The position numbers and the translations under genes are program-made. A stretch of 36,464 nucleotides of DNA from Chloroflexota bacterium. GTDB taxonomy: Bacteria > Chloroflexota > Limnocylindria > Limnocylindrales > CSP1-4. Positions 23,602 through 25,432 of the stretch are shown here, one piece after another. Numbering within the stretch: the first letter of the stretch is position 1; every line of letters begins with the position of its first letter. Where the stretch lies: assembly GCA_003158675.1 (NCBI GenBank), contig PMKN01000075.1, positions 1-36,464 of the forward strand. Reading direction: 5' to 3'. Below the pieces are notes generated by a model. That model was not told the origin of the DNA and did not search any database. It saw only the letters and a program-made list of their open reading frames with translations.

Positions 23602-24237
23602 AGACCGGGCTGCGTGCGATACGCGCCCCAGGCAGTCCTTTCAGAAATGTGCAATGCTGCCCGCAGCGGCGGCGCAGGCTGACTGGCAGCATGGCCGCCG
23701 CAGCCCCACGGAGCAATTGCCTCAGTTCGGCGCGCCCCGATCCTGCAACGCGGATCGTTGCTATACGCCGGGCTGGTGGTCGCGCCCGGGTCTTACCCGT
23801 GGCCTTACCGCGTCTCCGCGCTCTCCATTCGATTGATCTCGATGCTGGCTTGGGTATTGAAATCCTAGAGTGACATGCTTAGGATTACGTCCCCATCCCG
23901 GCGGGGGACGAGCCGGGTTCGCTCCTCCGAATCGATTGGAAGGCTATCGATGGCGATTTCGGTAGCGGTCCAGCCTCGGACGCGTTCTGCGGTCATGCGC
24001 ACGCCCGACTCGTGCCCCGCCGCGCTCCGCGCCATGGCCATCTGGCCGCGATTGGACCGTCGCGCTCTCGCCCGCTGCGGCTGTGACCCGGCTCGAATTG
24101 CCAGGTACGTCTCACGGCGGACCAGGATGCCAACCCGCTCGATCGTGACCTTGTTGAATCGGTTGTAGTTGCAGCGCCGCGACGCCGACCGAGGCTCACA
24201 GGAAGTGGTGTGCTCCGGTCCCTCGCGAAGCGACCCG
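23602..24237. other. Intergenic region of about 640 bp, possible decayed gene in its right half
   Basis: Nothing recognisable in 23602-23864. In the right half a minus-strand frame is open (see the separate entry). I see no RNA gene or clear repeat. Confidence 0.5.
23865..24237 (-). CDS. Doubtful minus-strand ORF, unrecognised, possibly degenerate
   Basis: The frame is open from the HEPN stop to 23865 and its codons look GC3-rich in places. The product ends in EIAIDSLPIDSEERTRLVPRR followed by DGDVILSMSL, which reads like real protein, but no start with a ribosome site is visible and nothing is recognised. It could be the remnant of a gene that followed the HEPN/MNT pair, or chance. The antisense ORF 23875-24168 is less convincing. 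Confidence 0.3.
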
Positions 24238-24621
24238 TCAGCTCTGCCGCTCCAAGAAGCGGACGACTGCGTCCCGGAAGATTTCGGCACGCTCCACAAC
24301 GGTCGCGACGGAGTCGAGGTCGACGACCAGGCTCAGGTCTCCGCCCGATGCCTTGCGCAGGTCGGCCGCGTCCAGCAGCCAGCGGTGATAGGCCGAGTAC
24401 ATGCGGCCGCTCCGCCCGAACTGGCGCCCGTACTCGGCACAGACGGCCTGGGTTGGCCCCGGCGCCAGCCCGTCGACGTCGAGACACGCCTTGGCAAGGC
24501 GGAGCATCGCCACACAAGCCCGTTCCGATGCGGTCTCGGCATCGCCGGCATCGAGTTCCCGGTGAGCGGAGACGATCGCCCGCTCCGCTCCTTCGAGCAG
24601 CTGAGTGGCTCGCTCTCTCAT
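24238..24621 (-). CDS. HEPN domain protein (toxin of a HEPN/MNT pair)
   Basis: 127 residues, all-helical, with the pattern of UPF0332-type HEPN proteins: ASERACVAMLRLAKACLDVDGL, then YGRQFGRSGRMYSAYHRWLLDA and ADLRKASGGDL. R73-x5-H79 fits the Rx4-6H signature of HEPN RNases. In such pairs the HEPN protein is a ribonuclease toxin held in check, often by AMPylation, by the MNT protein. The track's longer start is rejected: ATG 24621 overlaps the MNT stop codon in ATGA. Whether the Arg/His sit at the true active site cannot be told without an alignment. Confidence 0.75.
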   Translation of the reverse strand: MRERATQLLEGAERAIVSAHRELDAGDAETASERACVAMLRLAKACLDVDGLAPGPTQAVCAEYGRQFGRSGRMYSAYHRWLLDAADLRKASGGDLSLVVDLDSVATVVERAEIFRDAVVRFLERQS

Positions 24622-25394
24622 ACGGACACGACGTCGGATCGAATGGCCATCAGATGTCCGTCCGTGCGGTTGCTCCAGGTCTGCCCGGAGACGAACACCC
24701 GGCTCACTATCAGCCCGAATTCGAGGGACAGGCTGGCGCACGCGGCGCTGCTGCGCTCGAGTTCGTCGCCGTAGCGCTCGATCGCATCGAGCACGATAAG
24801 GACCTCGACATCAGCGTCCGCCTTCGACTCGCCGTGTGCGCGCGAGCCATACAGGTACAACCCGACCAACCGTTCGCCGTAGATGGGCCGAAGGATCCGA
24901 GCCAGGCTTTCGGCGACCTTGAGGCCCAAGGCGTCCGGGCGTTTCGGTTCGTTCAACTCCGACGGACGGGTCTGGACGACCCGGGGCGGCGAGGGAGGCT
25001 CCGGTGCGCTCGCATGGGGCTTGAGATGCCGCAAGTCGGATCGGAGGTCAGCGCTCTCCGGGTCAGCGGGGGAAAGCGGCATTGGGCCGGGATCTGGTTC
25101 GGTCGCTACCAGGATCAGGTTCCGGACGGCGATCGCGAACGGGGAGGAGGTCGCTCGGAAGTAGACCTGGTGGCCTTCCGCCTCGCGCCCGACGAGGCCC
25201 GCGGCCACGAGGCGACCGAGTTCACGGCTGGCGGTGCCCGGGCTCGTCCCGGCGCGGCGCTGCAGTTCACGCAGATGCAGGCGACGCTCAGGTTCGGCCA
25301 TGAGCAAGACCAGGATCCGGCGCCTCACGGCCGATCTTCCGAGCGCGAGGTCGGCTGCCGTGGTGTTCTCAGTCACGACTACGCTCGTTCTCAT
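24618..25394 (-). CDS. Winged-helix/minimal nucleotidyltransferase fusion (MNT antitoxin)
   Basis: 258 residues. About 20-85 form a winged helix (RRRILVLLMAEPERRLHLRE followed by LQRRAGTSPGTASRELGRLV). A Pro-rich linker (100-155) joins it to a nucleotidyltransferase domain with LYLYGSRAHGESKADADVEV. The catalytic pair, normally DxD, reads D195-V-E197. A Glu could still bind Mg2+ but is unusual. ATG 25394 fits a transcript that begins next to the start codon, since there is no ribosome site and a promoter lies 10 bp upstream. The winged helix suggests it represses its own operon at the palindrome covering its start. HEPN is the partner, overlapped by four bases. Confidence 0.8.
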   Translation of the reverse strand: MRTSVVVTENTTAADLALGRSAVRRRILVLLMAEPERRLHLRELQRRAGTSPGTASRELGRLVAAGLVGREAEGHQVYFRATSSPFAIAVRNLILVATEPDPGPMPLSPADPESADLRSDLRHLKPHASAPEPPSPPRVVQTRPSELNEPKRPDALGLKVAESLARILRPIYGERLVGLYLYGSRAHGESKADADVEVLIVLDAIERYGDELERSSAACASLSLEFGLIVSRVFVSGQTWSNRTDGHLMAIRSDVVSV

Positions 25395-25432
25395 GCATGA
25401 GACAATCGTACTCACAACAGAGAACAGGTCAA
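25389..25432 (-). promoter_or_regulatory. Candidate promoter and palindromic operator of the MNT/HEPN operon
   Basis: Minus strand: TTGACC (25427-25432), a 16-bp spacer and TACGAT (25405-25410). Ten bases further is the ATG. A perfect 14-bp palindrome TCTCATGCATGAGA (25389-25402) covers the expected transcription start and the start codon. This layout suits autorepression by the winged-helix/MNT protein and a leaderless or nearly leaderless mRNA. Confidence 0.55.

Follow-up and report, generated by a model that had tools for sequence, protein, structure and literature searches.

The window, that is, the whole 36,464-nucleotide stretch of Chloroflexota DNA that was analysed, encodes on its (-) strand a nucleotidyltransferase (NTase) with an N-terminal winged helix (wHTH) and a HEPN partner. 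Judged from its sequence, this pair is probably a partly domesticated, chromosomal and vertically inherited offshoot of the class II (PDC-M05-like) HEPN/MNT pairs that acts as an autoregulated DNA-binding switch. In this genus the known catalytic residues are mostly lost, the locus sits at a fixed place, the repressor-like sites are evenly spaced and a repair gene is the usual neighbour, which points to a self-regulating switch more than to a toxin system.

Reading from the promoter, a short ORF is followed by the wHTH-NTase gene (24618..25376 (-), 252 aa, likely start GTG at 25376, frame open to 25415) and the HEPN gene (24238..24621 (-), 127 aa, assigned by profile and model), with the NTase stop and the HEPN start sharing ATGA (4-nt overlap). 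The winged helix (25104..25340 (-), residues 13-91) was assigned to the ArsR/MarR type by HMM (MarR_2, 5e-7; ArsR-type, 5e-9) and by its AlphaFold model, which Foldseek related to BigR/NolR/CzrA. The HEPN protein had no Pfam match; its profile reached 2hsb (6.7e-5) and 9xbd (1.4e-21), the fold nearest to its predicted model was 2hsb (AF0298, TM 0.86), and the sister-genus partner matched PF05168 at 4e-11. HMM searches, AlphaFold/Foldseek and the (-) strand coordinates agreed with the sequence-only reading, which had proposed a wHTH fused to a nucleotidyltransferase with a HEPN partner. A whole-genome search found the wHTH-NTase gene in 22 of the 177 genomes of the class, mostly in one genus and with HEPN adjoining; the phylum-wide search of other Chloroflexota returned mostly standalone MNT genes with intact motifs.

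Such a fusion is not new, since it is already catalogued in PADLOC as PDC-M05, a nucleotidyltransferase and HEPN pair that is enriched in archaea and whose antiviral role is unconfirmed (PMC12988326). The window wHTH-NTase matched the PADLOC M05A model PDLC04368 at 5.6e-20, in two stretches covering both domains; the window HEPN gave no match to the M05B model, and the sister-genus HEPN matched it at 9e-4. Like the window pair, PDC-M05 (wHTH-NTase M05A and HEPN M05B) consists of two overlapping genes, and its plasmid examples carry palindromes near the start codon. On the Bradyrhizobium plasmid (L186, 1877-1962), two of these, AACCCATATTGGGTT and TCCCCAATATGGGGA, are spaced by 21 bp, and the NTase ATG marks the end of the second. 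A general 21-bp rule for PDC-M05 was rejected, the spacing being clear in Bradyrhizobium only (0/300 shuffles), marginal in two cases and absent in the others. The window locus differs from PDC-M05 in being chromosomal and fixed, with decayed catalytic motifs, whereas PDC-M05 is found on plasmids or mobile DNA. A reading of the locus as a defence system in the PADLOC sense was also discarded, given that no phage record with an M05A relative was found and that the locus lies in a core neighbourhood.

By sequence, the solved structure nearest to both the window NTase and HEPN was 9xbd, which together with 9xbc represents a solved pair of class II HEPN/MNT (PF05168/PF01909). In PMC7641770, class I is defined by RX4HXY with GSX10DXD, and class II by PF05168, the lack of RX4H, a conserved Tyr and GSX10DXD. 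At the position of the class II Tyr of 9xbd, 9xbc has Phe; no paper on either structure was found in the literature searched. The Type VII HepT/MntA pair (Shewanella SO_3166/SO_3165) likewise shares its gene order and both folds with the window pair, which has neither RX4HXY nor GSX10DXD.

The active-site motif of the window NTase (24804..24848 (-), residues 177-191) is exactly GSRAHGESKADADVE, that is, GSX10DXE, so that the claim of Glu as the second catalytic acid was correct. Kanamycin nucleotidyltransferase uses Asp/Glu/Glu, and DxE as such is therefore not new. Among the NTases of the genus, the GS serine was lost in 17 of 18 and survives in the window copy only, while the Glu of DxE, and acidic residues at both catalytic positions, were present in 18 of 18. 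The kept acidic pair and the GS of the window copy make residual NTase catalysis possible. The HEPN of the window reads RKASGGD (24337..24357 (-)) where RX4HXY would be expected and at the place of the class II R..(A/S)DYD, with the Arg kept and the Tyr lost. Both Rx4-6H and the class II tyrosine were absent from all 18 HEPNs of the genus. The genus thus departs from class II in the missing Tyr, the mostly lost GS, DxE in place of DXD and the additional wHTH; the relatives in the sister genus g11, by comparison, are textbook class II, with GSRARGDHDPDSDIDV (GSX10DXD) and R..ADYD. An alternative His has been proposed for AF0298-like HEPN proteins (PMC3710099), and at this position (YHRW) many HEPNs of the genus have Phe or Tyr. 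As RNA cleavage by a Legionella HEPN does not need its Rx4H residues (PMC11586414), the loss of Rx4H is no proof of RNase loss; judged from these residues, RNase activity of the genus HEPN is unlikely. Both genes are under constraint (dN/dS 0.08-0.30 for HEPN, strong; 0.23-0.45 for NTase, moderate), which argues that they are not dying genes.

These data bear on a working class II toxin-antitoxin system, in which HEPN would be a toxin with an undescribed active site, the DxE NTase would modify or sequester it and the wHTH would autoregulate the operon. The MNT-HEPN order with its 4-nt overlap, the strong selection on HEPN, the acidic pair kept in all genus NTases, the GS of the window copy and the canonical motifs of the close g11 relatives are compatible with such a system. 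However, the modification-site Tyr and Rx4-6H are missing in every member of the genus, the alternative His is replaced in many of them, the chromosomal place is fixed and both genes were lost in the lineages G036 and G053, which makes this reading rather unlikely. More specifically, the idea that HEPN is an active RNase toxin which AMPylation of a tyrosine neutralises was not supported, given the absence of Rx4-6H and of the class II Tyr from HEPN, the absence of the GS serine from the relatives' NTases and the Shewanella MntA D39E/D41E double change (GSX10EXE), which abolished modification; the available part of PMC7641770, where this is described, contained no single change of the second Asp.

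The switch reading draws further on the promoter region. A -35 box TTGACC (25427..25432 (-)), kept in most relatives, and a -10 box TACGAT (25405..25410 (-)) with a 16-nt spacer place the predicted transcription start at 25398 or immediately beside it; one match to TTGACC-16-TACGAT was found where 0.1 was expected. Aligned upstream DNA from 20 genus loci revealed a conserved array of GTTCTC-N6-GAG(A/T)AC units over the promoter, the mRNA 5' end and the NTase start codon, with a spacing of 21 or 22 bp in 62 of 63 steps. In the window, copy A (TGTTCTC-TGTTGT-GAGTACG, 25407..25426 (-)) lies between the -35 and -10 boxes, copy B (TTGTCTC-ATGCAT-GAGAACG, 25386..25405 (-)) is in the middle, and copy Z (CGTAGTC-GTGACT-GAGAACA, 25364..25383 (-)) lies over the NTase start codon, its left half being weak here and strong in most relatives. 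Copies A and Z are near-invariant in the 20 loci, with one to four weaker copies between them, and both persist in G037 and G045 despite decayed middle copies. A first operator phase, GAGAACGANNGTTCTC, was dropped in favour of GTTCTC-N6-GAGWAC, as the latter alone survives in these two genomes.

We have built an operator matrix from the relatives, leaving the window out, and scored it over 72,890 window positions. Copy A came out on top, the three window copies ranking 1, 4 and 5, and ranks 2 and 3 were opposite-strand readings of A and Z; since the matrix derives from orthologous DNA, this ranking measures conservation and not binding. The promoter pattern TTGNNNNGTTCTC..GAGTACGMTTGT occurred at 16 places in 15 of the 177 class genomes, all at the wHTH-NTase gene, and its reversed control gave no match in the same genomes. 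In the sister genus g11 this arrangement recurs with altered letters (TGTACTC-N6-GAGTACA). A different wHTH-NTase paralogue (L093, G072:C139) has its start codon covered by an operator of the same type, GTTCTC-ATGTTG-GAGAAC. A wider regulon was considered and rejected, as operator-like sites elsewhere in the genome were chance-like, for instance inside a gyrase-like coding sequence, and their counts were barely above the control.

The sequence-only reading had drawn attention to a 14-bp palindrome over the transcription start and the start codon. The palindrome, TCTCATGCATGAGA (25389..25402, within copy B), is indeed perfect, spans the predicted transcription start and has no second copy in the 2.78-Mb genome. 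By itself it is no more than expected by chance (5 perfect 14-bp palindromes in the window against ~6 under a Markov model), and its ATG in the NTase frame is not conserved; its significance comes from its conservation as one copy of the 20-locus array. Autoregulation as the likely mode of control, as had been proposed, was also supported. A comparable layout is known from AbiEi-type autoregulation (PMC7319586), with an N-terminal wHTH on the antitoxin and, at the promoter of its NTase operon, several inverted repeats, but there the NTase belongs to an unrelated family and is the toxin, with the wHTH on its partner.

The palindrome carries two ATGs in different frames. That at 25398 opens a nine-codon ORF, MHENERSRD followed by a stop (25369..25398 (-)), predicted to be leaderless, and that at 25394 is in the NTase frame. 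The sequence TACG(A/C)TTGT was found in 20 of 20 genus loci, 6-7 nt 5' of the upstream start codon, which is ATG, or GTG in two relatives. A -10 box placed so near the start codon is the pattern of leaderless bacterial genes (PMC3160421). The upstream-ORF arrangement was present in 17 of the 18 NTase-bearing loci (in G052 the ORF, MGENERSRD and a stop, was read by eye from the DNA), the exception being G055, where the stop falls 14 nt short. The ORF spans 9 to 30 codons, and in nearly all of these loci its TGA overlaps the NTase start RTGNNTGAGAAC by 8 nt. This start, RTG-NN-TGAGAAC, is conserved in 20 of 20 loci and corresponds to GTG 25376 in the window. A leaderless transcript, as earlier suggested, fits the mRNA and its first short ORF at the predicted start, and not the NTase with its likely start at 25376. 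Mycobacterial leaderless coupled small ORFs (PMC4633059) likewise have a 5'-terminal RTG and a short-ORF stop that overlaps the next start; here, by contrast, the overlap is RTGNNTGA and lies inside an operator copy. In g11 the operators lie directly on a leaderless NTase start, with no short ORF, and the wHTH-only gene of G036 has a 1-nt shift that brings the 5' ATG into frame. A simple history of the array would be that a 21-bp unit multiplied in tandem in the stretch separating the start of the mRNA from that of the NTase.

Alternatively, the NTase could begin at ATG 25394 on a near-leaderless mRNA, the short ORF being accidental; this concerns the start codon only and could hold together with any of the other readings. 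At that place, each of the six short-array genomes has an ATG or GTG in frame; overall, the codon is ATG in the window and one relative only, GTG in five and not a start in the rest. Most long-array genomes have no start codon there, and in G037 the NTase frame is closed by a TGA just upstream, leaving RTGNNTGAGAAC as the sole start, so that initiation at 25394 appears unlikely.

The pair lies in conserved surroundings. Acyltransferase, UbiA, ParAB and methylmalonyl-CoA mutase genes on one side, and ApbE and an ABC transporter on the other, are fixed around the pair in 10 genomes. The gene tag (DNA-3-methyladenine glycosylase I) follows HEPN in most of the genus, either immediately or with one gene in between; it was not found in the window MAG, an 82% complete assembly. 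The sister lineage G036 has a wHTH and then tag at the same place, with promoter and operators kept and NTase and HEPN gone; in G053, tag is present together with a remnant of HEPN, and the promoter has decayed. Two versions of the locus occur on different contigs of G047 (L078, G047:C62), one of them 95% identical to G036 and possibly on a misbinned contig. Outside Chloroflexota, a single case was seen on a Legionella adelaidensis plasmid (NZ_LR134425.1, L191, 576-1797), with tag directly upstream of a PDC-M05A wHTH-NTase gene. Between HEPN and ApbE, positions 23875-24168 of the window recur in relatives with open frames on both strands (..RLDRRALARCGCDPARIARYVSRRTRMP..) and could hold a small gene or RNA.

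The lexA promoters of the genus carry GAACGNNYGTTC; their LexA box reads TTGACAATCGAACGNNYGTTCTGTAC (L095-L112; G000:C44:34695-34706), and further candidate SOS boxes were seen in the genome. LexA binding to the array, with the operon and tag as part of the SOS regulon, would find support in the likeness of the array core to this box (GAACGNNYGTTC resembles the GAGAACGANNGTTC phase of the array) and in tag being a repair gene, but it is improbable because the window array (C13) has no GAACGNNYGTTC and none of its units has the complete LexA core GAACNNNNGTTC (present in ~14 of the 20 genus loci), the form of copy A is nearly always GTTCTC/GAGTAC, g11 has only GAGTAC and the conserved phase GTTCTC-N6-GAGWAC differs from that of LexA.

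In the favoured model of an autoregulated switch, the wHTH-NTase, as a dimer or in a larger complex with HEPN, would bind tandem GTTCTC-N6-GAGWAC operators two helical turns apart and thereby repress its own promoter. The mRNA would start at the 5' AUG of the short ORF, ribosomes that complete this ORF would reinitiate at the NTase start that overlaps its stop, and translation of HEPN would be coupled to that of the NTase via ATGA. The NTase and HEPN domains would be partner or ligand-sensing domains that set repression, and not an antitoxin enzyme and an RNase toxin. While the array, the upstream ORF, the overlaps, the residue losses, the selection, the synteny and the tag linkage are read from the DNA itself, we infer the identity of the array-binding protein, repression, the lack of toxicity and a sensed signal. 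More tentatively, domestication could have turned the HEPN-MNT pair into a transcriptional switch, free of toxicity, that serves DNA alkylation repair (tag), the 21-bp-phased array bound by wHTH-NTase/HEPN doubling as the leaderless leader ORF and its copy number tuning repression and translation. Searches of the literature, which covered few subscription journals, turned up no description of the operator array, of the leaderless upstream ORF within it, of the catalytic decay or of the link to tag.

Among predicted toxin-antitoxin modules, HEPN/MNT pairs have been called the most abundant, and class II is without a tested function in the literature searched. A genus in which the known catalytic residues decay while the genes remain under selection, and in which the operator can be read and a repair gene often lies nearby, offers a direct way to ask which roles class II pairs may have besides toxicity. 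The pair of this genus would thus be an example of how HEPN/MNT may turn into housekeeping regulation.
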